A stretch of DNA of 40,112 bases, taken from contig JAHFST010000018.1 of the NCBI GenBank assembly GCA_023265625.1, positions 1 to 40,112 of the forward strand, read 5' to 3'. Shown here in pieces: positions 5,326 through 32,776 of the stretch (positions are counted from its first letter, which is position 1; every line of letters begins with the position of its first letter). The notes under the pieces are model-generated. The model was given only the letters and a program-made list of their open reading frames with translations, did not search any database and was not told the origin of the DNA. The position numbers were made by a program, and so were the translations under genes. This DNA is from Deltaproteobacteria bacterium. GTDB taxonomy: Bacteria; UBA10199; JACPAL01; JAHFST01.

Positions 5326-8300
5326 ATGAAAAACAATCAGTTGGTAGCATTTGTTATGTTCTTTTTGTTGACCGCCAGCGCGGGGAGTGTCTGGGCCGAT
5401 CCTTGTTATGTAACCGATTATGAGGACCATCCGGAACATTCACCGAACTCTTCCCAGAAGCATTATACCTTTCGTGACCTGATCAGTATTGTCAGCAATG
5501 CCGGAGTGATTGACTCTGGAACGGCGGAGGTTCCCTCCTGGGCCAAGCCATTTGCATCCTTCTGTGAGGATGGTGCGACACCTCAGGGGGGGAAGATCCG
5601 TCGTATTATTTTCAAGCCTACCGATGATGGGCAACCTGGTGCTATTGAATTAAAAGATTTTCTCCCAGGTTTGACCGTTTATAAAAATGAACAACTGATC
5701 GTGGAGGTGCCATCTGGTTACTCGGTGTTCCTAAAGCCTGCTGACAGTTTTCCATCGGGCAAGTGCGGTCTGATGATCGGGACTGATATTAGTTATCAAC
5801 CGAACGACATAGATCCGCAGACTTTTTTGGCTGACGCGACTTCGAATAGTACGGTGATCAAGGGTAGTCTGATTGTTCATAGTTTCCCCAGCGATGGTAT
5901 TTGTGTTGCCGCCAAATGGGTTCAGTTGAACGGTACCCAGTCTTATTTGAATCAAGGAAACGGTATCTCTGTCTCTAGCGATGGAAACCTTTTAAAAGGG
6001 GTTGCTAGTCTCCTGAACCAGGGGAAAGGGATCTTGATCCTATCCAAACAGAATAGCATCACCCAGTCAGAGGTAGCATTTAATCAGGGAGTGGGGATTT
6101 CGTTGGAGCCTAATGCGGAGCAGGATTTAATCTCCCAGACGGTTGTCCATGACAACAAAGGTGGAAAAGGGGGGGCGGGGATTGTCTTGGTGCAGTACGC
6201 CAACATCATGATGCAACCGCCTCAGGTGGAATTAACAACGACCCAGACAGGGGTGGTTCATGTTGTCGCCAAGGCTAAACCTGGAGTGAAGGATCCTGGA
6301 GCGACGGAACCTGAAAAAAAATACGGTCCCCCAATCAAATCAGTGGAGGTATATCTGGCCACTTCAAATGATTTGGCTGAAGGGAAGCCGACCCAGGGTC
6401 GGTTTTTTCTCAAGACCATTCAAATGAAAGCCGGTCAGGGATCAGAAGACATTTCGGACGAGACAATCAAACAGGTGACTGGGAAAAACTCGGTAGATCA
6501 CAAAGATACCTTTTTCACCTTTACGGCTCAGGATGAGTCTAAAAACAGCTCTGGTTATAGTACAGCCGTGGCTTATCCCGAACCGTCTTTTGTGTTTTTT
6601 ACGCCGATACTTTTCAACTGGGATGTTGTGGTCAATGTGATTAAGGCACTAGATCCCGATGGAGATGGCGTCTTGAATATTAGCCTGGCGGGCAAACCTA
6701 AGGATAATTGCCCGAATGATAAAAACCCAGATCAAGCCGATCACGACAATGATGGAGATGGTGATGTATGCGATAAAACTCCTTGCCCTAATGATGCCCA
6801 AGAAAACGAACAAGAATTAAAAGATGGGGTTTGTAAGGCGATAGGTCCCCTATGTTCCGATGGTCAGGTCAAGGTAGGAGACCAATGTGTTGCGGATCAA
6901 GACAAGGACGGGGTGGCGGATACGGCTGATAACTGTCCGGCTGTGGCTAATGCGGATCAAAAGGATTCTGATGGCGATAAGATGGGTGATGATTGTGATG
7001 CTTGCCCTGAAGATATTGGACAGGGGAACTCTTGCGGGGGGTGTGGAGTTTTGGCCCACCAACCCAATGACCCTTGTACGAACGGTGATGGGGCGTGTGC
7101 GGGTAGTGGCTTTTACCAATGTAATCCCGATAAAAAGTCGGTGAGTTGCAACGCCAAGGTACAACCGGATTTGACTAAGATTGCCGACGATGGCAACTCT
7201 TGCACTGAGGATGTGTGTGATGGGGGTAAGGAGATTCATCCACTCTGGGGAGACAATACGTCCTGCAATGATGCGGATGCGTGCAATGGAATGGAGTTTT
7301 GCCAGTCAGGAAAATGTGTGTCGGGCCCGGCGCTTTCTTGTGATGACGGCAATGCCTGCACCACCGACTCTTGTGATCCTAAGGGTGGGTGCCAGCATCT
7401 GGCCATTCCGAATTGTTGCCAGCAAAACGCGGATTGTAACGACAATAACTTCTGCACCACGGATAGTTGCGATGCGGGCAGCGGCAAGTGTTCCAATGTG
7501 ACGATCACCTATGTCGATGCGCCACCGTCGCTCTGTCAACAGTGGGTTTGTCAGGATGGGAACAAGACGGCGGTACCCGCCAATGAGGGGGGCGCCTGTG
7601 ACGATGGTAATGCCTGTAGCATGGCCGATAAGTGTTCCGGCGGCCAATGTTTGGGGAATGTTGCGCTCAGTTGTGACGACGGCAATGTTTGCACTACGGA
7701 TTCATGCGACCCCAATGGTGGGTGTCAACATACAGCCATACCAAATTGTTGCCAGCAAAACGCGGATTGTAACGACAATAACCTCTGCACCACAGATAGT
7801 TGTGATGCGGGCAGCGGCCAGTGTTCCAATGTGACGGTCACCTACGTCGATGTGCCACCGTCGCTCTGTCAACAGTGGGTCTGTCAGGATGGGAACAAGA
7901 CGGCCGTGCCTGCCAATGATGATGTTGCCTGTGACGACGGCAATGCCTGTACCGCGGATTCCTGCGGTCCAGGGGGTTGTCAACACGAGGCCATCGCTAA
8001 TTGTTGTGCCAAGGACTCCGATTGTAGCGATAACAATGCTTGCACGACCGACACTTGTAATGTTGCTACCGGCGCATGTCTCAATGCACCCATCACTTAT
8101 GACCAAGAAGCACCACCCTCCGCCTGTCAACAATGGGTTTGTCAAGAGGGCGCTAAGGTAGCAGTCCCTGCCAATGAAGGGATGAGTTGTGATGATGGTG
8201 ATCTTTGCTCGTCCAATGATCAATGTGTCCATGGTGACTGCAAGGGAATTGTGGTTGATGCCGATGGTAATGGGGTAGGGGATACCTGTCAGACGACGAC

Positions 8301-8871
8301 CTGCGCTGTCGGCCAACATGTGGAATCCGGCCAATGTGTTACCGATGTCCCCAACGTGGCGGTATGTACTGCCAATCAGATTGTCTCAGGCGATCTCTGT
8401 ATTACCTGCGGGACCGATGAAGAGGTGGTCAATAATCAGTGTGTTAAAAAAGCATCACATCCCGTTGACGTGTCCGCTAACACCGATACGGATGAAGATG
8501 GGGCGGTGGATAGTGTAGATAATTGCCCGACCGTGGCCAATCCCGAGCAGACGGATAGCAATGGCGACAAGGTAGGGGATGCTTGTCCGGCGAGTTCAGG
8601 TTCAACGGGCGCACCTCCTCCAACGTCAGGAGCCGATGCGGAGACTCCGGCTAATCCGGATCAAACGCCAACCTCGGACAATACGCCAAATACCGATATT
8701 CAAGACGCCGTCATTGAAACCGCTGGAGGTGGGGGCTGTAGCTTGATTTCTCCGGAAGGATCGAGCGCCTCGGTGCCGCTGTTCTTTTTGGCGGGGGCGC
8801 CGTTCCTGCTGATGGTTGGGGTGCGCCTGTTTCAATCCAGGGCGATCACAAGGATCGCCCCTACAGCCTAA
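5326..8871 (+). CDS. Secreted Cys-rich repeat protein with TSP3 repeats and C-terminal sorting-like anchor
   Basis: This 1181-residue protein has a clear Sec signal peptide (MKNNQLVAFVMFFLLTASA, with likely cleavage after VWA). Residues about 80-300 look like a parallel beta-helix. Calcium-binding thrombospondin type 3 repeats (DxDxDG with DNCP) occur near 442-485, 523-560 and 1054-1085. Residues about 650-980 are Cys-rich repeats with CDDGNACTTDSCD and NCCxxxxDC motifs, encoded by 333-bp direct repeats. The C-terminus has a Pro/Thr linker, GGGGCSL (Cys 1138), EGSS, a hydrophobic segment (about 1147-1165) and a short Arg-containing tail. That layout resembles MYXO-CTERM-like sorting signals. 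The last codons lie inside a GTAGGGGCG-type palindrome. GGGGA about 8 nt upstream of the ATG at 5326 may act as ribosome site. It is probably exported and anchored at the cell surface; its ligand is unknown. Confidence 0.88.
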   Translation: MKNNQLVAFVMFFLLTASAGSVWADPCYVTDYEDHPEHSPNSSQKHYTFRDLISIVSNAGVIDSGTAEVPSWAKPFASFCEDGATPQGGKIRRIIFKPTDDGQPGAIELKDFLPGLTVYKNEQLIVEVPSGYSVFLKPADSFPSGKCGLMIGTDISYQPNDIDPQTFLADATSNSTVIKGSLIVHSFPSDGICVAAKWVQLNGTQSYLNQGNGISVSSDGNLLKGVASLLNQGKGILILSKQNSITQSEVAFNQGVGISLEPNAEQDLISQTVVHDNKGGKGGAGIVLVQYANIMMQPPQVELTTTQTGVVHVVAKAKPGVKDPGATEPEKKYGPPIKSVEVYLATSNDLAEGKPTQGRFFLKTIQMKAGQGSEDISDETIKQVTGKNSVDHKDTFFTFTAQDESKNSSGYSTAVAYPEPSFVFFTPILFNWDVVVNVIKALDPDGDGVLNISLAGKPKDNCPNDKNPDQADHDNDGDGDVCDKTPCPNDAQENEQELKDGVCKAIGPLCSDGQVKVGDQCVADQDKDGVADTADNCPAVANADQKDSDGDKMGDDCDACPEDIGQGNSCGGCGVLAHQPNDPCTNGDGACAGSGFYQCNPDKKSVSCNAKVQPDLTKIADDGNSCTEDVCDGGKEIHPLWGDNTSCNDADACNGMEFCQSGKCVSGPALSCDDGNACTTDSCDPKGGCQHLAIPNCCQQNADCNDNNFCTTDSCDAGSGKCSNVTITYVDAPPSLCQQWVCQDGNKTAVPANEGGACDDGNACSMADKCSGGQCLGNVALSCDDGNVCTTDSCDPNGGCQHTAIPNCCQQNADCNDNNLCTTDSCDAGSGQCSNVTVTYVDVPPSLCQQWVCQDGNKTAVPANDDVACDDGNACTADSCGPGGCQHEAIANCCAKDSDCSDNNACTTDTCNVATGACLNAPITYDQEAPPSACQQWVCQEGAKVAVPANEGMSCDDGDLCSSNDQCVHGDCKGIVVDADGNGVGDTCQTTTCAVGQHVESGQCVTDVPNVAVCTANQIVSGDLCITCGTDEEVVNNQCVKKASHPVDVSANTDTDEDGAVDSVDNCPTVANPEQTDSNGDKVGDACPASSGSTGAPPPTSGADAETPANPDQTPTSDNTPNTDIQDAVIETAGGGGCSLISPEGSSASVPLFFLAGAPFLLMVGVRLFQSRAITRIAPTA
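7339..8180 (+). repeat. Intragenic direct repeats of 333 bp (Cys-rich modules)
   Basis: The codons for CDDGN begin at 7339, 7672 and 7930. Copies 1 and 2 are 333 bp apart and very similar at the DNA level, for example in the stretch beginning TGTTGCCAGCAAAACGCGG. Copy 3 follows after only 258 bp because the segment for the SMADKCSGGQCLGNVALS region, about 75 bp, is absent; copy 3 is also more diverged. This shows module duplication followed by an in-frame loss of one sub-module. Confidence 0.85.
8840..8864 (+). repeat. GTAGGGGCG-family palindrome at gene 3' end
   Basis: This is a 25-bp imperfect palindrome (GGGCGATC, then GATCGCCCCTAC). It is the exact reverse complement of the left arm of the element at 31094. 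It lies within the last codons of the Cys-rich gene and encodes its C-terminal residues (AITRIAPTA). Confidence 0.8.
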
Positions 8872-13478: not shown

Positions 13479-16400
13479 ATGGCCTCATTCACTATTACTG
13501 CGCAGATGGTAACACTGGCCAACACGATTGGCCTTCAGGGGATTCAAGCAGGGAAGACGCTTGGGACCTTGCGGGAACCATTGCGTCAGTGGTCTGAAGG
13601 CCTTTCGTTTAGTCATAGGGCCGATCAGATGCTGTGGCAGCAACTCAACGATTTCGTCGACGGTAATCCTTGCTCGCGAGCCGATGCGAGCAAACTCCTC
13701 AAAAACTTGGCGGGTTTGGATCGAGGTCAAGGTTTTCGCGTCAAGCCCATCCGTCGTATTTTTGTTCCCAACCGGGGCGAACCGGTCATGAGGCTCATTA
13801 CGGCGGCTCGTACCCTGGGTGCCGAGCGCGGCGAAAAGGTCGAGGTCGTGGTCATGTATCTGGAGCAAGATAAAAATGCCCCATGGGTCAAGGAAGCCGA
13901 TATCGCCATCCCGATTCCGCCGAAACGGCAAAAATTAGTTCCCGTCCTCGATGACGATGGAAATCCGGTCATGGTGGAGGATAAGGAAACCAAAGAGCTT
14001 AAACCGAAAATGAAGCGGTTGATCCCGTACCTCGACCTCGAGCTCATTCTTCAAGTGATAAAAGAGACAGATGCTGATTCCGTGTGGCCGGGTTGGGGAT
14101 TTATGTCGGAAAAAGAAGAACTCTCGGCGGGGGTGACTGACCTTGGCAAAACTTTTATTGGTCCGAGTCAAGAGGCGATGCGGGCCGTCGGAGACAAGAT
14201 TGGTTTCAAGCGATTGGCTGATCCGGAGAATCGCACTTGGAGCGGCGGGGCCGTGGCCACAGTGGAAGAGGCCCAGGCGGTTTGCGCCCGGTTGGGGTAT
14301 CCTTGTGTGATCAAGGCGACGGCCGGCGGCGGTGGGCGCGGTATTAAGTTTGTCAACAACGATGCGGAAGTTGTGGAAAAATTTCCAGTTGCGCAGCGCG
14401 AGGCCGGACGGGCCTTTGGAGATGCCACCCTGTTTGTGGAGCGGGCGGTACTCGGGGCGCGTCACATCGAGATCCAAATGATTGCCGATCAATACGGCCA
14501 TGTGGTGGCCGTGGGGGCGAGAGATTGTTCCGTGCAGCGCAACAATCAGAAATTGGTTGAAGAAGCCCCACCTCCGGGGATTAGCGAAAGACAGTTAAAG
14601 AAGATGTACCGTTTGGCGGAAAAGATTGTGCGGGAGGCGGGTTACGTCGGGGTGGGAACCGTGGAAGGGCTCTTCAAGGATGGCGAGTTTCAGCCCATGG
14701 AACTCAATGCCCGTCTTCAAGTGGAGCACACCGTGACCGAGGTGGTGACGGGTACGGACCTCGTCCAAGAGATGATTTGCGTTGCGGAAGGTCATCCTCT
14801 CTCCTTTCTGGAAACGCCGGCGGTTCACGGACATGCCATCGAGGTGCGCGTCAATTTTGAGGATCCTGATAAGGATTTTGCCCCTACCGCAGGTCGCCTC
14901 CACGTTTTTCGTCCTCCCACCGGACCGGGGATTCGTTTTGATTCAGGAGTACGCGAGGGGGACGAGATTGGTTCAGACTTTGATCCCATGGGGGCAAAAT
15001 TGATTGCCTGGGGGAGGACTCGTTCCGAGTCGATTGCCCGAACACGGGGGGCGATCGGGGACTTTGACGTCGATGGGGTCGCCACGAGCGTTGGTTTGGC
15101 CGGTGAGGTTGTGGCCCATCCTGATTTTGTGCAAGGAGGCATTTCGACTCAGTGGTTTCCAGCCTATATGAGAAAGCGCAAGGCCTGGGAAGTCAAACCC
15201 TACAATCTAGAGGGCTTGATGATTGCGGCGGTGTTGGCGTATCGGGGAGAGGCGGAGAGTTATCAGGCCGCCGTCCTGGGTGATTTGAAGAAAGGGCTTC
15301 TGCCATCCCTCCCGCCCCGCCCGGAAAATAATTTTCTCCTCTCGCTCTACGAACGTGAATATTCCTTGTCGGTGAGACAGGTTCGGCTCGGTAATTATGT
15401 TGTGTCTGTTGGAGGACGGGACTTCGAGGTTCAGGTGGAAGAGCGGGGCCGGAGCGAGTACCGCATGGTGGTGGATGGAAGACCGCTGAAGGTGATTGGC
15501 TCTGAGCAGGAGGGGACCTTCGGCCTCACCCTGGAAGAGGGCGTGGCCATTGCCGTCAAACGGCCCCCGGTCGGTGCCATCAAGTCTCCATCCAATGGTT
15601 CCATCCCCAAGATCCTGGTGAAACTGGGGCAAAAAGTGGCGGTCGGAGATGACATTGTTCTTTTTGAACAGATGAAGGGCGAAACGCCGTTGAAGGCCGA
15701 GGTCGCCGGTGAGGTGGAGGAAATTTTTATCCGGGAAGGGGATGCGGTCGAGAAGGGCAAGCTCCTGGTTCGCATTAACACCGATCTGGGGGAGAAGAAG
15801 CCGCCTGAGGCACCTGCATTAGTCTTTCGACCGCGCCATCAAGGGATCTTCTTTGACCTGACGAGGATTCGAAGGGAAGTTGATCAAAGGGTGGTGCAAG
15901 CCGCGTTGCATGCCATCGCGCCTTCTTGCCAACAACATTATTCGGATGGAATCCAGCTCCTGGAACAGGCCCTGTTGGGTTTTGATTCCCTGGGTCTCTT
16001 TACCCAGATGGTTAACCAGCTGGGTGTGACGGTGGGAGAATTAAGTCCCTTTTTGGACAGGATGCTCCAAGTATTTTCCATGGGAGAGGGGCTTTCCGGG
16101 GATCAGTTTAGTGAGACGGCTGCTTCGCTCTTGGAATCTTTCATTGATGTGGAGCTGCTTTTTCAGAAGGGATTGCGTCCCTCGCTCAGGGAAAAATCGG
16201 TGGCCGACCTATTGGATCAATTCCTCAAGACACGCCAGTCCCCCTCGAAGGAGTTTGAAGAGCTGTTGCTACGGGCCTTGCGGCATTATGGGGTGACCAG
16301 CCTGCAATCGTCGGTGGCCTTGGATCGGGCCTTACTCCGTATTGTCATTGCGAGGGAGGAACGCGATTTAAGACAGCGGTTGATTATTAAGTTTCTTGAT

Positions 16401-19400
16401 TGGTTGGCCGAGGTGGGAAAGAAGCGTGAGGGGACCTTAAATGGGAGACTCATGAGTGTCCTCGAGAGGTATGAACTTCCGGATCGAGAGGTCTATCCCG
16501 TGATTCATGCCGCTCAAGGCGTGCTATTTACCCTCCAGCAAGGCAAGATTAGTCGCAATAACCGAGCGGAGGCAAACAGGCGGGTGGATGATTTGATCAC
16601 GCAGGCCTTGTCCGAACCCGAGGGATCGGAGTCAAGGCGCGAAGCCATTCGAAGCATTGCCGCCCTGCCGGCCGTAACGGCCAATCCGCTCCTTACCCAC
16701 TTTGGCGGGGCTGATCAACCGCGTGCAGAGCTTGCCGCGTCGGCCCTCTTGGTGCGTTTTTATGGGAGTCCGCATCCAAGACGACGTCATCAAATCGTTG
16801 ACCACAAGTTAGTGTCAGATGTCCAGGGTCCAGTATCGGTGGGTCGATTTCGTGACGGGAAATCCAAGGTATTGCGAGGTACGGTGCGAATCATTGGTGG
16901 CGCACAGCCCTTATCCGGTAAGGACATTACCAATCTTGTCAGGAGGGGATTGAACCACCTGGAAGGACTGACCCAGACCAGGGGCAGGACGGCTTCGGAT
17001 TCTGCCGAACCAATCATGGATTGTACCTTGGAGGTGGCCCTCCCTGCCTTAGATGGGTCATTTGATAAATCTGAACCGAACAATCTGGCTGGGTTGATTG
17101 CAGCGTTGCCTGATGTGATTGGGTATGTGTCTCCTTCGCTCTCGATCAAGAGAATCATCTTCGCCGTGATGGGAGTCAGCGGCGGGGAAGAGGTGGCCTA
17201 CCTCATTTTTGAACGTTCCAACGAGACACCGTCTCGTTTTGTCGAGGATCCGCTCCGTCGTTTTCTCCATCCCTATCGAGCGGAAGAGATTGAGCTTTGG
17301 CGGCTGGCGAGACATTGGGACGTTGCGAAGATTGATACCGCGTGGGCCTGGAATCACCTCTTTATCGCCACTGAAAAGGGGGATGATCCAGGTAAGCCTG
17401 GTGACGGCAAGAAGAAGGACCCTGATCGACGCCTCTTTGCCTATTCCGTAGTGCCTCATCTCTCGTCACCGGCAAGGGATAGTCAAGGTAATCTCTTTTT
17501 TTCCGAGATTGATGTGGCCATGGGGCAGGCCATCCACGCGATTTACGATGCCTTGCAAAATGATGAGCGGGCCAAAGGGGCGGCTTCCCATCGGATCAAC
17601 CTTATCATTAGGCCCGAGATGACCGCGTCGGTGCAGGACCTCCAGGGGGCGGTGAATCGGCTCTATCCACGGATACGAGGGCGGGCGATTGGTGAGACCT
17701 CCATTCGGTTGCATCGGTGGCGTCCGTCGGAGGATCAACCTTATCGAGATGTTGTGATTCGTGCGCGGCGTGTGGGGGATTCGGGTCAGGTGCAGTTAGA
17801 AGTAATTGAACCCGCCCCGCCACCAAGTGGCTATATCACCCCCATGACCGCTCATCAACGACGCGTGCTCCGGAATCATCGTTCGGGTTACCTTGATCCT
17901 TACGAGTATCGGGACATGCTGGTGGCGGCCGGTCCATACGGCGAGGCAACCTTCCAGGAGTTTGATATTTCCCATGAAAAGGTGGTGGTGGATGGGTTGG
18001 GGCGTGACAACATCCAGTATGAACTTGATCAGAGAGTGGATCGTCCCGCGGGGCAAAACAGTGCCAAGGTGGTGTTCGGTCTGCTCAGGCGTCCCACTAA
18101 AAATCACCCCGAGGGGATTGAGGTGATGCAGATTATCAATGATCCCTCCATCGGGCTTTGTCCTCTGGAGGGACCGGAGTGTGCCCGCATCATGGCGGCG
18201 ATCAATTATGCGGAGCGCCAAGGTCTGGAGGTCGATTGGTTGACCACCTCCAGCGGGGCCGGTATCTCCATGACGAAGGGGACGGAGAACCTTGATTGGA
18301 CGGCCCGGGTGATGCGGCGTATCGGCGAGTTTGTCCGGCGCGGGGGACGGATCAATGTGATCGCCCAAAAGACCAATATCGGGGCGCAGTCCTACTGGAT
18401 GGCCAATGCGACGATGATGTTGGACAGCGGAGGGGTCTTGATCTCCACCCCGGATTCTTTTACGGCCCTGACGGGCAATGAGGCCCAAAAGATTTCGGGT
18501 TCCGTTCCTGCTGAAGACAATGTCGGACTAGCCGGCGCGGAGCGGATTACCGGTCCCAATGGCGAGACGCAGTTTTTGGTTGGTTCGATTGTCGAGGCGA
18601 CAGAGTTGCTTTGGAGGCGTCATGATTTGTTGGCACGGCCTAGCGGCGAGGTCTTGGCCTCGATCCGGCAGAGTGGTGACCCGAAGGATCGTGACATTAC
18701 GGCCTTTGTCTATGGGGAGAAGCCGGATAAGAGTCCGTTAACCTTGGCCGATGTCTTTGCAGACAAGGATCGAAAGACCGCCTACCCGGTCGAGGCCCTG
18801 ATGAGCGCGGTGCATGATCAGGATGGGCCGGTTTTTGAGCGTTGGTCTTCGTGGAGTCGAGACGGTTCGGATTTGGTCAAGGTGCACGAGACCAGGATCG
18901 GTGGCATACCCAGTATGCTGATCGGTGTTGAGGCCCGTCCGATGCCGAGGGAAGGCGAGATCCCCCCGGGATATCCTGCGCAGTGGTCCGGATCGACGCT
19001 CTTTCCCGAAGGTTCAAAGAAGATGGCGCGGGCGATCAATGCAGCCAGCGGCAACATGGATCTTGTCATCCTGGCCAACCTCTCCGGTTTTGATGGAAGT
19101 CCGGAGTCTCTGGCCAAATGCCAGCTCGAATGGGGCACGGCGATTGAAGAGGCGGTGCGGACATTCCAAGGGAAGCTCGTCTTTGTGGTGGTGACTCGCT
19201 ATCATGGCGGCGCCTATGTTGTCTTCTCCCGTGTGCTCAATCACCGCATGACTGTGGCGGCCGTGGAGGGCGCCTTCGCCTCCGTGATTGGGGGGGCCAT
19301 TGCGGTCAAGGTGGTCTTTAAGGGCGAGGTCAAAAAAGAGGTGAGTCGTCTCTTGAGGGAAGATGCTACGGTAAGAATGGAATTGAGTGCGGCTCGTAGT

Positions 19401-20624
19401 GAAGAAGAGCGGGTGGAGATTGAAAAAAGGGTTCGGGCCGAGGTAGAGCGAAAATTACGCAACAAATATGACGGATTTCACACCGTAGAACGGGCACGGG
19501 ATGTTGGTTCCGTCGAGGTCATTGTTCCTGCCAAGGGGCTGCGCCCTTGGATCATCGAAGAACTTCGTTCGGGACGCGAGGCGTATCGCGCGGAGCTCAC
19601 TGCTGAGTTAGAGTGTGCCCGTCAAATCGTGGCGGCGGTCCGTGGGGCAACTATTTCTGGGGGACTTGCGTTGTTGGAGGGTGCCTTGGGTGCCTCCCAC
19701 TTAGGACGACATCTCCATCGATTTGTTGACCCATTAGAACAAGGCACGGCATTAACGGCAGCGCCGGTACCTGCGATAAGAGCGACAGGCTCTCCTGCTG
19801 TCGATTTACGAGTGGAGTCTGGAGCATCAAGCTTAACAGATGATCAGCAGCAATTTGCCGCCACCTTAGGTCAAGATTTGCGTGTGAAAATGATAGGCGA
19901 CAGAACGGTACTTTCCTATAGCTCCGTAGAGACGACAATGGATGTGGCGCAGGCGCTTGCCAAGCAGGGTTGGAACCCTGGCAGTGTCGTGGTCGCCGAG
20001 ACCCAAACGAAGGGGCGCGGGCGTCCGGGAAAATCTTGGTTTTCCAGCGCGGGACAAGTGCTCTGCCTCTCCCTCGACCTCCCAACTACTTTGCCCGCTG
20101 ACCAGCACTACAAGCTTGGCTTTGCGGCGGCCTTGGCCGTGGCCAATGTGGTTGACGAGTTGGGATCGGATGTTGCCCAAATCAAGTGGCCCAACGACGT
20201 TTACCTGAAGGGAAAGAAACTGGCGGGCCTCCTCGTGGAAACGGTTGGCGACGGGAGGGTTGTCTTGGGTCTGGGACTTAACACCAATGCCGAGCGTTTT
20301 GAGGGAGAGCTCGCTGATACGGCCGTTTCGTTACGGATGACGACAAGGACCAGTTGGCCGCATGAGGAGATTTTGAAAAAATTATTCCCAAAAATTGCAG
20401 AGGTTTTGGCACAGCTGGAGCAGGGCGATTGGATGGATGTCTTGCAGGGAGTGAGGAGTCGTTTTTACCTGCGGGATACTCGTGTCCAAGTGACGCATGG
20501 GGATGATATCGTCCAAGGGGTGGTGAGGGACATGACAGGGGAGGGGCTTCTGGTGCTTCAGACAGACGATGGTGATTTACGCAGATTTGCCAGTGGCGAG
20601 GTGACCGTTGTTAGGAAACTCTGA
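13479..20624 (+). CDS. Single-chain acetyl-CoA carboxylase fused to a biotin-protein ligase domain
   Basis: This 2381-residue protein should make malonyl-CoA from acetyl-CoA, ATP and bicarbonate in the cytoplasm. Order of domains: an unrecognised N-terminal 90 residues; biotin carboxylase about 90-560 (PNRGE at 97-101, ATP-grasp loop KATAGGGGRG at 279-288, ELNARLQVEH ending at H417); biotin carrier about 695-770 with the acceptor Lys 733 in EQMKGE; a long region to about 1450 whose second half resembles the eukaryotic ACC-central domain (RRLFAYSVVPH, HRINLIIRPEM); carboxyltransferase about 1450-2060 (ANLSGF near 1866, RYHGGAYVVFS near 1907); and a biotin ligase domain about 2130-2381 (GRGRPGKSW from 2179, KWPNDVYLKGKKLAG from 2236). 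Typical bacteria split these activities over four or more genes. No ribosome site precedes the ATG. Substrate could be another acyl-CoA, but the layout favours acetyl-CoA. Confidence 0.9.
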   Translation: MASFTITAQMVTLANTIGLQGIQAGKTLGTLREPLRQWSEGLSFSHRADQMLWQQLNDFVDGNPCSRADASKLLKNLAGLDRGQGFRVKPIRRIFVPNRGEPVMRLITAARTLGAERGEKVEVVVMYLEQDKNAPWVKEADIAIPIPPKRQKLVPVLDDDGNPVMVEDKETKELKPKMKRLIPYLDLELILQVIKETDADSVWPGWGFMSEKEELSAGVTDLGKTFIGPSQEAMRAVGDKIGFKRLADPENRTWSGGAVATVEEAQAVCARLGYPCVIKATAGGGGRGIKFVNNDAEVVEKFPVAQREAGRAFGDATLFVERAVLGARHIEIQMIADQYGHVVAVGARDCSVQRNNQKLVEEAPPPGISERQLKKMYRLAEKIVREAGYVGVGTVEGLFKDGEFQPMELNARLQVEHTVTEVVTGTDLVQEMICVAEGHPLSFLETPAVHGHAIEVRVNFEDPDKDFAPTAGRLHVFRPPTGPGIRFDSGVREGDEIGSDFDPMGAKLIAWGRTRSESIARTRGAIGDFDVDGVATSVGLAGEVVAHPDFVQGGISTQWFPAYMRKRKAWEVKPYNLEGLMIAAVLAYRGEAESYQAAVLGDLKKGLLPSLPPRPENNFLLSLYEREYSLSVRQVRLGNYVVSVGGRDFEVQVEERGRSEYRMVVDGRPLKVIGSEQEGTFGLTLEEGVAIAVKRPPVGAIKSPSNGSIPKILVKLGQKVAVGDDIVLFEQMKGETPLKAEVAGEVEEIFIREGDAVEKGKLLVRINTDLGEKKPPEAPALVFRPRHQGIFFDLTRIRREVDQRVVQAALHAIAPSCQQHYSDGIQLLEQALLGFDSLGLFTQMVNQLGVTVGELSPFLDRMLQVFSMGEGLSGDQFSETAASLLESFIDVELLFQKGLRPSLREKSVADLLDQFLKTRQSPSKEFEELLLRALRHYGVTSLQSSVALDRALLRIVIAREERDLRQRLIIKFLDWLAEVGKKREGTLNGRLMSVLERYELPDREVYPVIHAAQGVLFTLQQGKISRNNRAEANRRVDDLITQALSEPEGSESRREAIRSIAALPAVTANPLLTHFGGADQPRAELAASALLVRFYGSPHPRRRHQIVDHKLVSDVQGPVSVGRFRDGKSKVLRGTVRIIGGAQPLSGKDITNLVRRGLNHLEGLTQTRGRTASDSAEPIMDCTLEVALPALDGSFDKSEPNNLAGLIAALPDVIGYVSPSLSIKRIIFAVMGVSGGEEVAYLIFERSNETPSRFVEDPLRRFLHPYRAEEIELWRLARHWDVAKIDTAWAWNHLFIATEKGDDPGKPGDGKKKDPDRRLFAYSVVPHLSSPARDSQGNLFFSEIDVAMGQAIHAIYDALQNDERAKGAASHRINLIIRPEMTASVQDLQGAVNRLYPRIRGRAIGETSIRLHRWRPSEDQPYRDVVIRARRVGDSGQVQLEVIEPAPPPSGYITPMTAHQRRVLRNHRSGYLDPYEYRDMLVAAGPYGEATFQEFDISHEKVVVDGLGRDNIQYELDQRVDRPAGQNSAKVVFGLLRRPTKNHPEGIEVMQIINDPSIGLCPLEGPECARIMAAINYAERQGLEVDWLTTSSGAGISMTKGTENLDWTARVMRRIGEFVRRGGRINVIAQKTNIGAQSYWMANATMMLDSGGVLISTPDSFTALTGNEAQKISGSVPAEDNVGLAGAERITGPNGETQFLVGSIVEATELLWRRHDLLARPSGEVLASIRQSGDPKDRDITAFVYGEKPDKSPLTLADVFADKDRKTAYPVEALMSAVHDQDGPVFERWSSWSRDGSDLVKVHETRIGGIPSMLIGVEARPMPREGEIPPGYPAQWSGSTLFPEGSKKMARAINAASGNMDLVILANLSGFDGSPESLAKCQLEWGTAIEEAVRTFQGKLVFVVVTRYHGGAYVVFSRVLNHRMTVAAVEGAFASVIGGAIAVKVVFKGEVKKEVSRLLREDATVRMELSAARSEEERVEIEKRVRAEVERKLRNKYDGFHTVERARDVGSVEVIVPAKGLRPWIIEELRSGREAYRAELTAELECARQIVAAVRGATISGGLALLEGALGASHLGRHLHRFVDPLEQGTALTAAPVPAIRATGSPAVDLRVESGASSLTDDQQQFAATLGQDLRVKMIGDRTVLSYSSVETTMDVAQALAKQGWNPGSVVVAETQTKGRGRPGKSWFSSAGQVLCLSLDLPTTLPADQHYKLGFAAALAVANVVDELGSDVAQIKWPNDVYLKGKKLAGLLVETVGDGRVVLGLGLNTNAERFEGELADTAVSLRMTTRTSWPHEEILKKLFPKIAEVLAQLEQGDWMDVLQGVRSRFYLRDTRVQVTHGDDIVQGVVRDMTGEGLLVLQTDDGDLRRFASGEVTVVRKL

Positions 20625-21381
20625 GATCCTTCATGTTGAGACAGTCGATTCTACCAATTCTCTTGTAAAGAAATTAATCCAAGAAAATTCCCAGCGTGCC
20701 CGGGACGGGCTAGTGGTTGTTGCCGATGCTCAGACGGCCGGTCGCGGACGTTTGACTGGCCGGACCTGGATCTCCCCGCCAAAAGCGGGGCTGCTCTGTT
20801 CCATCGCCATTCCAACCCATCGTTATCCGTGCCCGGGTACCCAGCCCCTGCCCTTGGTGGTGGGAATCATCCTGGCCAGGACGATAGAATCTCTCTGCAC
20901 GAAACAAAATCTTTCCGTCCAGGTGGAGCTAAAATGGCCCAACGATCTCTACGTTCAAGGACGTAAATTAAGCGGGATTCTGATTGAAACGGAGGGGGAT
21001 TATTCGATCATTGGGATCGGCATCAACCTCAACACCGAAGAATTCCCGCCGGAATTGCGTCACAAGGCGACGTCCCTGAAGATCTTGACGGGTCGCGATT
21101 GGGATAGCTCCCAGGTGTTGGCGGAACTCTTGCGCATGATGGATGAGACGCTGCATCACTGGCAGCAAACCTCTGGCCCCGCATGGGACTCCTTGCTGGG
21201 CGAGTATCGGCGGCGCGATTTTCTAAAAGGAAAGAAGCTCTCCCTGCTGGTGGGGAGTCAAGCAACGCAAAAGCCTGTTTCCGTCATGGCCCAAGGGATC
21301 GCTGACGATGGGGCCTTGATGGTTTGCGACCCGGAGGGGGTTAGCTCGAAGATTTATTCAGGAGAAATTTCTTTGGATTAA
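20608..21381 (+). CDS. birA: Biotin--[acetyl-CoA-carboxylase] ligase, stand-alone
   Basis: This 257-residue enzyme would attach biotin to the carrier-domain lysine through biotinyl-AMP. Family motifs are clear: VDSTN at 13-17, GRGRLTGRTW at 45-54, KWPNDLYVQGRKLSGILIE near 110, GIGINLN near 137, and a small C-terminal SH3-like domain. There is no N-terminal DNA-binding domain, so it is a group I ligase without repressor function. The start is a TTG at 20608, inside the end of the carboxylase gene (17-nt overlap), with GAGG 6 nt before it. This implies translational coupling. Its sequence differs from the ligase domain fused to the carboxylase, so it is not a recent duplicate. Its stop codon overlaps that of vapC on the other strand. 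Confidence 0.92.
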   Translation: MLGNSEILHVETVDSTNSLVKKLIQENSQRARDGLVVVADAQTAGRGRLTGRTWISPPKAGLLCSIAIPTHRYPCPGTQPLPLVVGIILARTIESLCTKQNLSVQVELKWPNDLYVQGRKLSGILIETEGDYSIIGIGINLNTEEFPPELRHKATSLKILTGRDWDSSQVLAELLRMMDETLHHWQQTSGPAWDSLLGEYRRRDFLKGKKLSLLVGSQATQKPVSVMAQGIADDGALMVCDPEGVSSKIYSGEISLD

Positions 21382-22653: not shown

Positions 22654-23808
22654 TCACACCCGCTCAATGATCGTCGCCACCGCCATCCCCAATCCGATGC
22701 AGAGCGTGATCAAGGCGCGCTTCTTGTCGCGGCGTTCCAGCTCGTCGAGGACGGTGCCGAGCAAAATGGCCCCGGTGGCCCCGAGGGGGTGACCCAAGGC
22801 GATGGCGCCGCCGTTGACGTTGAGTTTGTCCCAGGTGGCGCCTTCGTCTTTAAATTCCCGGAGCCAGGCCATCGGGACCGGGGCGAAGGCCTCGTTGACT
22901 TCGTAGAGGTCGATGTCTTTCAGGTGGAGATCGGCCTTTTGCAGGACCTTGCGGGTGACCGGGATGACGCCCAACAACATGATGATCGGATCACTCCCCA
23001 CGATAGCCGTCGCAATAATCCGGGCCCGGGGTTTTAAGTTATGCTTTTTGCAGGCGTCCTTGGAGGCCAGCAGCACGGCGGCCGATCCGTCGACAATTCC
23101 GGAAGAATTACCCGCATGAATGACCCCATTTTCCTTAAAGGGAGGCTTTAAGGTTGCGAGGGATTCTGCCGTGGTGGAAGGGCGCATATGTTCGTCTCGG
23201 GCAAAGAGGAAGGGTTGGCCATTCTCGCCTTTGACTTGGATGGGCAGGATGCTGCGATCGAAGCGGCCTTCCGCCCAGGAGATCCCGGCACGGCGTTGGC
23301 TCTCGGCGGAAAATTCGTCGAGTTGCCGACGGGTGAAATCATACTTTTCCGCGATCATCTCTGCGGAGACCCCTTGGGAGACCATATTAGGATAACGATC
23401 GTAGAGGGCCGAGCCCGCGATCTTGAATTCGATCGACATGGGGACCCGGGTCATGTGTTCGGTGCCCCCGGCAATGACCAGGTCTTGCGCCCCCGCCATG
23501 ATGGCATGAGCGGCCATATTGACGGCGGTGAGTGCAGATCCGCAGAAGCGATTCAGGCTCACCCCCGGGACTTCAATCGGAAACCCGGCCGCCAACACCG
23601 CCTGACGGGTAATGATGTTGTCTTGTTCCTCGCGTTGGCTGACACAGCCAAAGATGACGTCGTCGACTAATTTAGGATCAATCTTGTTCCGTTGCACAAT
23701 GGCTTGCAGTGGAAAGGCCGCGAGGTCCACGGGATGGGTCCAACTCAGGCTGCCTTTTCGCTTGGCCCGCGGGGTGCGCACTGTATCAATGATGTATGAA
23801 CCGTTCAT
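22654..23808 (-). CDS. Thiolase (acetyl-CoA C-acyltransferase)
   Basis: This 384-residue protein has the complete thiolase active site: the acylated Cys 89 ([10 protein letters not shown]), the NEAFAP motif (305-310), His 340 ([16 protein letters not shown]) and the base Cys 370 (LCIGLGM). The length matches degradative and biosynthetic thiolases. It condenses two acyl-CoAs or splits 3-ketoacyl-CoA; the direction cannot be told from sequence. AAGGAG lies 5 nt before the ATG at 23806-23808. No fadB-like partner is next to it, so a role outside a classic fadBA operon is likely. The neighbours (carboxylase, PlsB) share an acyl-CoA theme, but it is not in an operon with them. Confidence 0.93.
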
Positions 23809-24149: not shown

Positions 24150-26099
24150 TTAACCGATAGCAGTGGTGGAAAACAACGGGGTCGGGGGAGATTTAACCAT
24201 CCGCGCCGCCAAGAGGCGTTCGATGCGTTGCACGGTCTCGTCGCTCTTATTATCCGGGGAAATTAGCTCGTAGTAGGTCTTGCGCTTTTTATCCCAGCCC
24301 TCCGTGTCGACCTTGAGAAATCCCAGGCTCAGGTAAGACTGGAGGGCGTTTTGCAGGTTGAACTTGAAATTGGCCTCGGGCAGTTTGATCTCCTCGCGGA
24401 GCAGCAGGATTTCGCCTTTGTGGGTGAGGTATTTGAGCAATTCACGTTGTTCCCAGCGACTGTTTCCCAACAGCGGTAGGGTGCGCCAGACTAACCAATA
24501 ACTCTCGAAGAAATTTTGCAACAGGCTGGCGAAGGTCTTGAGTGGTCCGGAGCGCAAGATTTTTACCTCGGTATCCGAGACTTGGATCGCCTGTTTTTGT
24601 TGCAAATAGTTGAGCAGCTTTTCCAAATGTTCCGGCAGCGATTGGCGTGTGCTGAAGGTGAATTCATAACAAAACAATTGTTGCAGGAAGCGATAATCTT
24701 CCGCCAGTTGATGACGGGGGATGACGTCGGTGGGAATCGAATTACAAATACGACAGAGCACCGCCAAGGAGACAAAGAAGTGGATCGAGATGTTTTTATA
24801 ATAGTCCAGTTGTCCCCGCTTGGGTTCCAAGATATGATATAAAATCTCGCCTTCGTCTTCGTATTCTTCCAAAAATCCCTGGGTCTTGAATTGGCGCAAC
24901 GATTCATGGAAGGCGGAGACCTCGAATTTTTTCAAGGGTTCGGAGAGGGGGCACTCTTTGAAGCGGAGATAGTCCAAGTAAGTCTGCACCTTCAATGAGA
25001 GTTCCTGACGCGAGATCATCTTGCGCGGGTGACTTAGCAGGGCCATGGAGGTCAAGGAAATGGGCGTCACCAAGGAGGATTTGTTGATCCCGTAAGTGAG
25101 CTGATGGGCGAGCTCTTCCACCTTCACGCGCTTTTCCTCGGCCTTGGTGCCTTTCAGGCAATCCTGTAAGGACAGGGGTTCGCCAAACCGGATGTACACC
25201 TTGCCCTGGCGTTTCTTGAGGTATTTGCTGATCCGTAAAATATCCCAGATCGATTCTTCTTTTTTGACCGATCCCGATTGCTCCGCCAGGTAGGTTTTTT
25301 CTTCCAGGACCGATTCATAAGTAAAAGAGGTGGGGACAAACAAGACATCTTCCGAAACCCCTTGATAAAAAGCATCGACAATCGAAGAGAGGATGCCCAT
25401 GCGCGGGGGCAGGAGCTTGCCGGTGCGGGTTCGCGTGCCTTCGATGAAGAATTCCATCGGGTTATTGCGGCGCAAATGTTCTTGGATGTAAAATCGAATG
25501 CAGGCGGCGTAGAGTTTATTCCCCTCAAAAGAACGTCGAATAAAAAAGCATCCGGATTTGCGGGCAAACGGGCCGAAGGGCCAAAACGAGAGGTTGAGCC
25601 CCCCCACGATATGCGGCATCGGGATGCGATGATAATAGGTCACATACGAGAGCAGCATGTAATCCATGTGGCTGCGATGGTTGGGGACAAACACGATAGG
25701 CTTCTTGCCAAACAGCGGTTGGAGCCGGTCCAGGGCCTCGGTATCGACCACGATGCCTTCATAGATGGTATTCAAGGCCCAGGTGATGAGGAAGTCCCAA
25801 AAGGGAAAGGCCAGGTAGTTCATGTCGGCCGCAATCTCATCAAAGTAGCGACGGGCATTCTCTTCCACCTGGGCCACGGCAAAACCGGTCTCGCGGGCGT
25901 AGGCCGTGATAAACTCCTGAAAACGGGTGTTGGCCCACAGGGAATGGAGGGTCTCCCCTTTACCTGCCGGGATATGGCTCGGAAGGTCGCGTGTCTTGCT
26001 CCGGATATAATTGACGAGGGCGGTCAGGAGGCTTTGGCCGAAAGTTTTGATCCTTTGGTAGAGGGATTCAAAGAATTCGGTCAGGTGGTGGTAATCCAT
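24150..26099 (-). CDS. plsB: PlsB-type glycerol-3-phosphate 1-O-acyltransferase
   Basis: This 649-residue protein (from the ATG at 26097-26099, MDYHHLTEFF) carries the acyltransferase block I HX4D motif in PNHRSHMDYM (near residue 140), block II GCFFIRRSF, block III FFIEGTRTRTGK (near 215) and block IV VPTSFTYESV. The long C-terminal region is typical of PlsB rather than PlsC/PlsY. It transfers a fatty acyl group to the sn-1 position of glycerol-3-phosphate at the inner membrane. A longer frame starts at 26201 inside the upstream gene's end; the extra 34 residues include a duplicated 12-bp DNA segment and look non-coding. No clear ribosome site exists for either start. E. coli PlsB is about 807 residues, so this is a shorter member. 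Confidence 0.85.
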   Translation of the reverse strand: MDYHHLTEFFESLYQRIKTFGQSLLTALVNYIRSKTRDLPSHIPAGKGETLHSLWANTRFQEFITAYARETGFAVAQVEENARRYFDEIAADMNYLAFPFWDFLITWALNTIYEGIVVDTEALDRLQPLFGKKPIVFVPNHRSHMDYMLLSYVTYYHRIPMPHIVGGLNLSFWPFGPFARKSGCFFIRRSFEGNKLYAACIRFYIQEHLRRNNPMEFFIEGTRTRTGKLLPPRMGILSSIVDAFYQGVSEDVLFVPTSFTYESVLEEKTYLAEQSGSVKKEESIWDILRISKYLKKRQGKVYIRFGEPLSLQDCLKGTKAEEKRVKVEELAHQLTYGINKSSLVTPISLTSMALLSHPRKMISRQELSLKVQTYLDYLRFKECPLSEPLKKFEVSAFHESLRQFKTQGFLEEYEDEGEILYHILEPKRGQLDYYKNISIHFFVSLAVLCRICNSIPTDVIPRHQLAEDYRFLQQLFCYEFTFSTRQSLPEHLEKLLNYLQQKQAIQVSDTEVKILRSGPLKTFASLLQNFFESYWLVWRTLPLLGNSRWEQRELLKYLTHKGEILLLREEIKLPEANFKFNLQNALQSYLSLGFLKVDTEGWDKKRKTYYELISPDNKSDETVQRIERLLAARMVKSPPTPLFSTTAIG

Positions 26100-26166
26100 T
26101 GGCAACAGCTTAATCGAAAGGAGGTGGTTTCGCAAGGCCGTATCAGGATTCGTATCAGGATTCGTT

Positions 26167-27450
26167 TTAGAGAGAAAAGTGATCGGACATTTTGCGCACA
26201 AGGTCGAGGGCGCGATGGTGGTAGGTATGGTTGGCCAATACCCTGGCTTGGCCTTTTTGAATGACCTCGCGTCTCTCCGATTCGTGGGTCAGGTAGTAGT
26301 CGACCAATTGATCGGCTTCCTCGATGGAGTGGTAGGTGACAATCTCTCCAGGACGAAAGGAGTCGTCAATTTCTTCACGATGATCCGTCAGTGGGAAGCC
26401 GCCGCATACTAAAGTCATCAGGGGTCGGTCATGCACGGCCCCGTAATATTGCCATTTGGTTAAACAAAACAAAATTTTTGCGGCCCTGAGAAACTCCGGG
26501 AGTTCTGTGTCAAATGGCAGTCTGGGGTAGTGACTTTGATAATTTCCCAACCATATTGACCAATCAGGCCCACCGTACACCCGAATGCCCTTCTTCTTGA
26601 AATGCCATAGGCTTGTTATCAGTTGATAATAAGAGTAACGATAATCGATGGCGATGGGAAGTTTGGCAATGCCGGTGAGTTGATGAATGTTCTTTTCCAA
26701 TCGAGCGCGTTCCCGGTGGTACTCGACAGGCGCTATATGGAATGTGGTATAAAAATTGAAAAAGGCGGAGCCTATTTTTTCCAGAATCTGTGGTTGAGTG
26801 GGCGGGACATCATAACCTGAATTTTTCATGGCCACCATGACCTCAAACAGTTTTTGTCCGTCCAAATTAGCATAATAGGCTGCCACCGCTTGAGCACTTT
26901 GAAAAGAAATGGCCGCATGGCCGCTCGCGGGAGGGGGAGTGCCAACGAATGCCAGATCCGTTTGATAGTGGGTGAGCTTATCTTGATTCATCTGGCGGGA
27001 GATTAAGTCCCTTTCGGCCGCCATGGGCAAATGGGCGGTGGGTAAACTTAGTTTGTGGAAAAAAGACATGTCCTGTCTATCTGTGACAAAAAAGCAGGTA
27101 CCATTGGGTTGATAACCACTCAGCCATTTTTTTCTGAGGAATAAATTTCCGGACGCTGCGGGACTATCCAAATACCAACTGGCATGAGGTATCTGACTTG
27201 CTTCCAAAAGGTTTTTAAACTCTATCCCGGCTTCGTCGCTCCAGTTGTTGTGAAACGAAATAAAATCGTAATAGTTTCGACCTAAAGTGAAATCCGGTTT
27301 GAGACCCAATATTTTGTCTCGTGCGTCTTGAGGTTTGTGATAGGTGTTAATCTCAACATGATGGACCTCGTGTTTTAAATCGGCAAGGGCCTTGCCTAGC
27401 AGATCAATCCAAGGGTCATGAGATAAAATGGCAATGCGCAGGCTCTTCAT
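26167..27450 (-). CDS. CgeB-like glycosyltransferase
   Basis: From the ATG at 27448-27450 this encodes 427 residues beginning MKSLRIAILSHDPWIDLLGK, a Rossmann-like start. The C-terminal third has the pattern of spore-maturation CgeB-type glycosyltransferases (Glyco_trans_1_2): GAVHDRPLMTLVCGGFPLTDHREEIDDSF, then EIVTYHSIEEADQLVDYYL and a closing HTYHHRALDLVRKM. Such enzymes use nucleotide sugars; donor and acceptor are unknown. A start nine codons upstream is possible, and neither has a ribosome site. It is upstream of plsB on the same strand (67-nt gap) and divergent from mutL (57-nt gap). Confidence 0.78.
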   Translation of the reverse strand: MKSLRIAILSHDPWIDLLGKALADLKHEVHHVEINTYHKPQDARDKILGLKPDFTLGRNYYDFISFHNNWSDEAGIEFKNLLEASQIPHASWYLDSPAASGNLFLRKKWLSGYQPNGTCFFVTDRQDMSFFHKLSLPTAHLPMAAERDLISRQMNQDKLTHYQTDLAFVGTPPPASGHAAISFQSAQAVAAYYANLDGQKLFEVMVAMKNSGYDVPPTQPQILEKIGSAFFNFYTTFHIAPVEYHRERARLEKNIHQLTGIAKLPIAIDYRYSYYQLITSLWHFKKKGIRVYGGPDWSIWLGNYQSHYPRLPFDTELPEFLRAAKILFCLTKWQYYGAVHDRPLMTLVCGGFPLTDHREEIDDSFRPGEIVTYHSIEEADQLVDYYLTHESERREVIQKGQARVLANHTYHHRALDLVRKMSDHFSL

Positions 27451-31166: not shown

Positions 31167-31970
31167 ATGAATTTAATTAAAATTAAAGCGCAATACGAAG
31201 AAGTCAGAAAGCAGATCGTTGATTCCTACGTTTGGAAATCGATCTTTCGGCATGGTTATAAGGATATCCCCCGAAACCGCGTCTTGATGACCGCTTCCAA
31301 TGTCTTTCTCCATCTCCATCCTTCTAAGATGCGGCGTCATGGGATCAAAGTTTCTTATACCTGGTGTGCCGGTGGATTGACCTTTCTGTTCTTTTTGATC
31401 CTGACGGTGACCGGCGTGATCTTGATGTTTTATTATCGCCCCGTTGGAGAATATGCCTACGTCGATATGAAGTACCTCCAGTTTGACGTCCCGTTTGGGA
31501 TGATTATGCGAAACATGCATCGCTGGTCGGCCCACATCATGGTTATCTTGGTCATGTTGCACATGTTCCGGGTTTTCTTAACCGGTTCTTACAAACCGCC
31601 GCGTGAGTTTAATTGGGTCATTGGGGTCATTCTCCTCGTCCTGACCTTCTTGCTCAGTTTTACGGGTTATTTGCTCCCGTGGGATCAGTTGGCGATCTGG
31701 GCGGTGACGGTCGGAACCAACATGGCCCGGGCCACCCCCTTGATGGGCAATGAGGGACCGCTTGCCGAGCAGATGCGGCAGCTGACCGGTTTGATCACCC
31801 CGCGGTACGATGCGCGTTCTCTCTTGACGGCTGGTACCATCGTCGGCGCACCGACTTTGTTACGATTTTATGTGTTACATTGTATCTTTATCCCCATCGC
31901 CACGGCGGTGCTGATCATCGTGCATTTTTGGCGGGTGCGTAAGGATGGGGGAATTTCGGGACCGTTATAA
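31167..31970 (+). CDS. Cytochrome b, N-terminal (b6-like) subunit
   Basis: This 267-residue membrane protein carries the four haem-b ligands in the usual spacing: H118 and H132 on one helix ([20 protein letters not shown]), and H238 and H253 on a later helix ([20 protein letters not shown]). Four main hydrophobic helices are visible. A cytochrome b split after the fourth helix is the b6f-like arrangement. GAGG lies 6 nt before the ATG. The next gene starts 2 nt after its stop codon. Confidence 0.94.
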
Positions 31971-31972
31971 TT

Positions 31973-32776
31973 ATGGCCGAACCACACAAAAAAGCAGAAA
32001 AAATAGTTCCAGCCTCCTCGCTGACCCCCGACAAGATTCATACGTGGCCGTTTTTGGTGCGTAATGAATTTATCATGGGTGTGGTGACGCTGATCGCGGT
32101 CACCGTTTGGTCCATCCTGATTGACGCCCCGTTGGAATCGCCGGCGAATCCCGCCAGGACTCCGAATCCTTCCAAGGCGCCTTGGTACTTCCTGGGTCTG
32201 CAAGAAATGTTGGTTTATTTTGATCCCTGGATGGCCGGGGTGGTGCTCCCGAGCTTGATTATCGTGGGTCTCATGATGATCCCCTATGTGGATCTTAATC
32301 CCAAAGGTTCGGGTTATTACACCTTTCGCGAGCGTAAATTTGCGGTCTCCGTTTTTTGTTTCGGTTTTTTAATCCTCTGGATCTTCCTGATCTTTGTCGG
32401 TGTTTTTCTGCGCGGACCGGGTTGGAACTTTTTTGCCCCATGGCAGGAATGGGATCCGCACAAGGTGGTCGCTTTGACCAATGTGGATCTCAATATGTTC
32501 CTCGCCCAGCATTTGGGGATCGATATGTTGCGCGATACGGTCGTGCAGGCCGTCTTTGGCACGGCCTTGATCGGGGCGTATTATTCGCTCATTGGTGTTT
32601 TTTGGAAATGGAAGTCCAAGACGATCGAGGCCTTGCAAGAGTTGGGTGTGATTCGTTACGGCATTGTCGCCTTTTTGTTTCTTACCATGATGGCCCTGCC
32701 CATTAAGATGGTGCTGCGCTGGACCTTAAATATTAAATACATCGTCAAGTTTCCCTGGATTGGACTCAATATATAA
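31973..32776 (+). CDS. Cytochrome b, C-terminal (subunit IV-like) subunit
   Basis: This 267-residue membrane protein supplies the rest of cytochrome b. The Qo-site PEWY motif is represented by APWYFLGLQEML (69-80), so the Pro-Glu pair of the canonical motif is replaced by Ala-Pro. Several hydrophobic helices follow, with a conserved-looking DLNPKGSGYYTFRERK segment after the second. It is longer than chloroplast subunit IV (about 160 residues) and has extra helices. Its stop codon overlaps the next ATG by one base (TAATG). Confidence 0.9.
   Translation: MAEPHKKAEKIVPASSLTPDKIHTWPFLVRNEFIMGVVTLIAVTVWSILIDAPLESPANPARTPNPSKAPWYFLGLQEMLVYFDPWMAGVVLPSLIIVGLMMIPYVDLNPKGSGYYTFRERKFAVSVFCFGFLILWIFLIFVGVFLRGPGWNFFAPWQEWDPHKVVALTNVDLNMFLAQHLGIDMLRDTVVQAVFGTALIGAYYSLIGVFWKWKSKTIEALQELGVIRYGIVAFLFLTMMALPIKMVLRWTLNIKYIVKFPWIGLNI

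Follow-up and report, generated by a model that had tools for sequence, protein, structure and literature searches.

Among described one-chain carboxylases, SACE_4237 of Saccharopolyspora erythraea, reported in 2019, is a homodimeric acyl-CoA carboxylase that carboxylates both acetyl-CoA and propionyl-CoA; it is essential and provides malonyl-CoA, and such enzymes have already been argued to bear on the origin of eukaryotic acetyl-CoA carboxylase (ACC) (PMC6491548). The single-chain long-chain acyl-CoA carboxylase (LCC) has its carboxyltransferase (CT) at the N-terminus and its biotin carboxylase (BC) and biotin carrier (BCCP) at the C-terminus (PMC6491548). As a rule a biotin ligase is a protein of its own, and a genome usually encodes just one, which serves all biotin enzymes of the cell (PMC3199775). 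A fusion is known from archaea, where Methanocella PycA is joined to a biotin ligase (PMC11237513).

Here we analysed a 40,112-nucleotide stretch of DNA from an uncultured Deltaproteobacteria bacterium (contig JAHFST010000018.1; hereafter the window), which contains no N. An open-reading-frame check showed that positions 13479-20624 of the forward strand, on which all parts described below lie, are open throughout for 2381 codons and then reach a stop. The encoded protein combines a one-chain ACC, the enzyme that opens fat synthesis, with a C-terminal biotin-protein ligase (BPL), and Pfam gave the order BC, biotin carrier, ACC central, CT and BPL, every domain scoring above its own curated cut-off. 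The chain begins with an N-terminal extension (aa 1-94; 13479-13760) that has no family match: Pfam found nothing before aa 169, and no homologue matched the first 90 residues in phmmer. This is followed by BC (about aa 95-566; 13761-15176), with Biotin_carb_N at aa 169-234, CPSase_L_D2 at aa 252-442 (193 bits) and Biotin_carb_C at aa 455-560, and by the biotin carrier domain (Biotin_lipoyl, aa 701-766, 48 bits; 15579-15776), in which Lys733 (codon 15675-15677) was located by its motif, EQMKGET. The central domain (about aa 770-1500; 15786-17978) contains an ACC_central match (PF08326, aa 1222-1402; 17142-17684) of 33.1 bits against a cut-off of 23.2 (E 2.4e-8). CT (about aa 1500-2035; 17976-19583) has its Carboxyl_trans match at aa 1569-1974 (69 bits), and a linker (aa 2036-2129; 19584-19865) leads to the ligase (aa 2130-2381; 19866-20621), with BPL_LplA_LipB at aa 2150-2262 (63 bits) and BPL_C at aa 2335-2375. 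An earlier note on this DNA had claimed one uninterrupted 2381-codon frame with BC, BCCP (Lys733), central region, CT and ligase, an ACC_central match and a complete C-terminal ligase with two quoted motifs; frame, domains and match were borne out, both motifs are present and the ligase domain is apparently intact. The note had named the lack of an above-threshold ACC_central match as a refuting outcome, and the 33.1-bit match runs counter to it.

Relatives were gathered by an alignment scan with the CT domain, taking one genome per GTDB species. This gave 45 loci, nearly all from Actinobacteria (Blastococcus, Kribbella, Amycolatopsis, Saccharopolyspora, Propionibacteriaceae and others) and four from records named Deltaproteobacteria. 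Identity of the fused protein to the actinobacterial type was 42-45% in BC, 42-46% in CT and 17-25% in the central region. All 36 full-length homologues terminate 0-15 residues past the equivalent of aa 2035, whereas the window protein runs on for ~345 aa. Since every one of them stops at the end of CT, the linker, which is absent from all homologues, and the ligase are an addition. The frames of five orthologues, from a sample of 385 diverse genomes, span 1861-1963 aa, likewise too short for a ligase, and the large frames initially inspected in relatives all lacked one. The earlier note had suggested looking for the same fusion in related genomes; a ligase search across 46 genomes of the class found one other BPL in a long frame, in genome G013, on a different carboxylase. 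Outside the class, long-frame BPLs were sought among the matches listed, where weaker ones may be missed, and a candidate of 2928 aa in G180 was rejected because it falls within 8000 bases of masked N. In the open-access literature we found no report of an ACC-ligase fusion, and an earlier mention elsewhere is possible. A ligase built into an ACC appears to be new, and this exact fusion is known from one genome, as assembled sequence.

The ligase domain comprises 252 residues behind the ~95-residue linker. It scored 151 bits with the NCBIfam model birA_ligase (cut-off 83), has sequence matches in the PDB and is predicted to adopt the BPL fold (pLDDT 91), with the BPLs of P. horikoshii and M. 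tuberculosis as best PDB fold matches. As in class I BPLs, a catalytic domain with conserved motifs is followed by a C-terminal cap, and neither Pfam nor NCBIfam matched an N-terminal DNA-binding domain anywhere in the fused chain. By motifs, cap and predicted fold, it looks like an intact BPL without DNA-binding domain (class I).

The role of the carboxylase was considered in the light of the gene content of the genome. No AccA or AccD proper was found in it, three PCC-beta-like CTs being present instead, nor was any other dedicated ACC; the genome is 95.6% complete, so that these absences are not proof. Two of the three CTs belong to gene clusters of known type: one carboxylase set adjoins methylmalonyl-CoA mutase, which identifies it as propionyl-CoA carboxylase (PCC), and another adjoins enoyl-CoA hydratase and HMG-CoA lyase, which identifies it as methylcrotonyl-CoA carboxylase (MCC); both types lie in catabolic clusters. 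The sole FabD-kind acyltransferase domain of the genome sits inside a 3789-aa type I fatty-acid synthase (FAS-I; L163:7455-18824 on contig C6, with Fas1-AflB-like helical, MaoC, acyltransferase and ketoacyl synthase domains), and the genome search showed no free-standing FabD-like acyltransferase. In two other genomes of the class, G025 and G036, the gene directly upstream of a one-chain carboxylase encodes FAS-I. Given the missing AccA and AccD, the catabolic setting of PCC and MCC and the presence of FAS-I, the fused protein is by elimination the best candidate for the source of malonyl-CoA; PCC might also make it.

Our preferred reading, to which we assign a probability of roughly two in three, is that a BPL without DNA-binding domain was joined in frame behind the CT of a SACE_4237-type ACC, giving a self-biotinylating enzyme that makes malonyl-CoA. 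The fused ligase would form biotinyl-AMP and, held on its linker, would biotinylate Lys733 of the same chain or of the homodimer partner; every copy of the enzyme would bring its own activator. The carrier would move CO2 from BC to CT, which would produce malonyl-CoA for the giant FAS-I, and a free ligase encoded by an overlapping gene would serve PCC and MCC. We infer both activities, the dimer and this division of labour between ligases, and consider self-biotinylation plausible, from the domains above their cut-offs, the CT tree, the central fold, the ligase motifs and the gene content. The reading also draws on the second carboxylase-ligase fusion of the class (G013), on Methanocella PycA-BPL (PMC11237513) and on the activity of SACE_4237 as a producer of malonyl-CoA (PMC6491548).

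The free ligase gene (20608-21381, forward strand) had been overlooked by the earlier note. It starts with TTG at 20608 and overlaps the fused gene, including its stop codon, by 17 bases; a GAGGTGA stretch ahead of the TTG could be its ribosome-binding site. Its presence makes it harder to argue that the organism needs the fused ligase, and with a free ligase encoded next door, Lys733 need not be the substrate of the fused one. The genome search found these two ligases and no third. They are ~30% identical and mutually nearest in the ligase tree, with weak support (83/79), and the pair likely stems from an old tandem duplication. The biotin site itself departs from the family pattern, which the earlier note had also missed: MKM is present in 36 of 36 homologues, and both other biotin carriers of the genome carry EAMKME. 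The codon after Lys733 is GGC, three base changes away from ATG, so that QMKGE is hardly a sequencing slip. A non-MKM motif was rejected as a hallmark of proteins with a fused ligase, as L056 (MKA) and L057 (MKS), two large carboxylases of the class in which no ligase was seen, also lack MKM. We put forward tentatively, as a possibility on the doubtful side, that the QMKGE site and the fused ligase co-evolved, the fused ligase serving its own carboxylase only and the free ligase the two EAMKM carriers.

The alternative that survives best is an incidental fusion, in which loss of a stop codon, probably after tandem duplication, joined the ACC gene to the ligase gene that followed it; the fused ligase would act as a general ligase of the cell that does not favour its own carrier. 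It is consistent with the tandem arrangement and mutual, weakly supported proximity of the two ligases, and with genome G026, where a one-chain carboxylase gene is immediately preceded by a ligase gene. However, the biotin site beside the fused ligase is unlike those of the other two carriers, and a second, differently built carboxylase of the class also ends in a ligase; both hint at use of the tether, and we regard an incidental fusion as unlikely.

The second substitution that had escaped the earlier note lies in CT. All 36 homologues have SGA followed by Arg or Lys, whereas the window protein reads SGAG (Gly1595, codon 18261-18263); this codon, GGT, is a single base from Arg. The Met residues flanking the biotinyl Lys are strongly conserved and not strictly required for biotinylation of every carrier, and the oxyanion loops of CT rely on main-chain amides, so that neither substitution proves that function is lost; the absent Met after Lys733 and Gly1595 may each reduce activity. 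The two changes, together with a CT terminal branch of 1.36 that far exceeds all others in its clade, would fit a carboxylase that has diverged so far that it uses a different acyl-CoA or works poorly, the protein being kept for another reason. We consider this quite improbable, since the remaining CT motifs (ANLSGFDGSPES, RYHGGA-VVF) and the BC motifs match those of the homologues and the genome search found no other dedicated ACC. Loss of the Arg at yeast CT position 1954 was rejected as a mark of a dead CT, as the inspected homologues also have Ser there.

Slightly less probable again is a non-catalytic ligase domain, a structural or biotin-sensing appendage beside a free ligase that does the work. 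The overlapping free ligase gene and the biotin-binding segment of the fused copy, which reads ETTM in contrast to the STN, STH or STQ of other ligases in the class, would agree with it, but GRGRPG, KWPND, KKLAG and the GxGxNxN segment have been retained after long divergence, which counts against it. An assembly error joining two genes is very unlikely. The assembly is metagenome-like (37 contigs), the fusion is known from assembled sequence and third-position GC falls to 0.44 in the linker; yet the join is in frame, mid-contig and without N, the ligase part (GC 0.55, third-position GC 0.62) is like the rest of the gene, and the stop codon lies within an operon-like overlap with the following gene.

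Elsewhere in the window, two lipid genes lie near the ACC gene on the reverse strand, a thiolase (acetyl-CoA C-acyltransferase; 22654-23808) and a glycerol-3-phosphate acyltransferase (24150-26201). A 610-aa frame of lower GC (0.43; 293-2125, reverse) has no family match, and the sole match of an 1181-aa frame (5326-8871, forward) is a below-cut-off one to an Omp28-related selenoprotein domain. Of two adjacent forward genes (31167-31970 and 31973-32776), one has a clear cytochrome b match and the other a below-cut-off match to the model of ExtQ, a b-type cytochrome of selenite/tellurite reduction operons.

The Pfam ACC_central match is limited to the C-terminal part of the central region, and phmmer with this region alone found no match among PDB sequences, whereas fold comparison did. 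The structure of aa 770-1500, predicted from 29 aligned central regions (mean pLDDT 74, pTM 0.75), aligned with ACC central domains across nearly its whole length, and all 31 PDB fold matches at E <= 0.001 were eukaryotic ACCs. Among them are 5i6e, a central domain on its own that aligned over 732 columns, and yeast ACC domains AC3-AC5 (5cs4, TM by target 0.70). The rmsd over the whole region was large, 13-18 A, so individual domains agree better than their relative orientation. The region is thus predicted to have the fold of eukaryotic ACC central domains.

In the CT tree, the window protein clustered with actinobacterial multidomain ACCs (support 93/98; best identity 46%), and human and yeast ACC joined three other proteins of the class, L055, L056 and L057 (100/99), apart from it; branches are long and bootstrap has not settled, and the two groups are nonetheless clear. 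Identity to L055, the closest eukaryote-type relative, was 33% in BC and 23% in CT. By descent, as judged from these comparisons, the carboxylase is of the actinobacterial (SACE_4237) kind and departs from it in its chain end and two motifs. The description 'eukaryote-style' in the earlier note therefore stands for domain order and central domain and fails for CT. Acquisition from a eukaryote of a true eukaryotic ACC, which the shared order and central fold might suggest, is extremely improbable given this tree and the lack of any match to the BT domain PF21385 in the fused protein up to E 1, a domain that L055 and L056 do match.

The class holds further large carboxylases. L055 (G017:C29) runs off its contig end; L056 (L056:3017-11428, G012:C31) lies on a 128-kb contig with lysine-fermentation genes adjoining, and L057 (L057:3804-11915) is on G032:C53. 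ACC_central scores reach 449 bits in L055 and 326 bits in L056. The earlier note had held that the ACC_central match of the window protein bears on the origin of the eukaryotic enzyme; by the CT tree, L055-L057 bear far more directly on that origin, or on transfer from eukaryotes. L059, L060, L061 and L063 (frames of 1937-2460 aa) and L058 (3819 aa) make up a sister clade; in these large BC/ACC_central/CT-like proteins a biotin carrier domain is not recognisable and the MKM motif is absent. The genomes G019, G024, G029 and G042 also hold a second one-chain carboxylase or fragment, with a biotin carrier where covered (L064, L066, L067). The proteins of the sister clade may be non-biotinylated partners.

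Taken together, these results show that the actinobacterial type of one-chain ACC also occurs beyond Actinobacteria, here in a genome that encodes a giant FAS-I. A carboxylase fused to its ligase would be a naturally occurring example of a modifying enzyme tethered to the protein it modifies, and if the dedicated pair holds true, ACC activation would depend on a ligase at one copy per active site. This makes it testable whether tethering takes the place of carrier recognition, and whether the MKM motif is thereby free to change.

Among known systems, LCC has the opposite domain order. The nearest fusion found, Methanocella PycA-BPL, likewise joins a biotin carboxylase subunit to a ligase, but belongs to a two-subunit pyruvate carboxylase, not an ACC, and its chain has neither central domain nor CT. 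The G013 fusion (L075:7633-15009, 2458 aa, biotin motif AMKSE) resembles the window protein in having BC, biotin domain, CT and a C-terminal BPL in one chain; unlike it, it has no ACC_central match, and its CT (207 bits with Carboxyl_trans) is placed apart from the window CT in the tree. Because the two carboxylases have different backbones, separate fusion events are the simplest interpretation, a point on which the ligase tree (p-AU 0.48) does not discriminate. The G013 genome also holds a truncated separate BPL (L077). Eukaryotic cytosolic ACCs (yeast ACC1, human ACC1/ACC2) share domain order and central-domain fold with the window protein, but their CT lies in the other branch, their ligase is a separate protein, and the BT domain finds no match in the window protein. 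The SACE_4237 kind shares the BC-BCCP-central-CT order, the CT clade and the CT motif ANLSGFDGSPES; identity to L130 of Saccharopolyspora soli is ~44% in BC and CT, SACE_4237 itself being compared by description. Whereas chains of that kind, at ~200 kDa, finish after CT, the window protein continues for ~345 aa, adding linker and ligase as well as a 94-aa N-terminal extension, and it carries QMKGE in place of MKM and Gly1595 in place of Arg/Lys.
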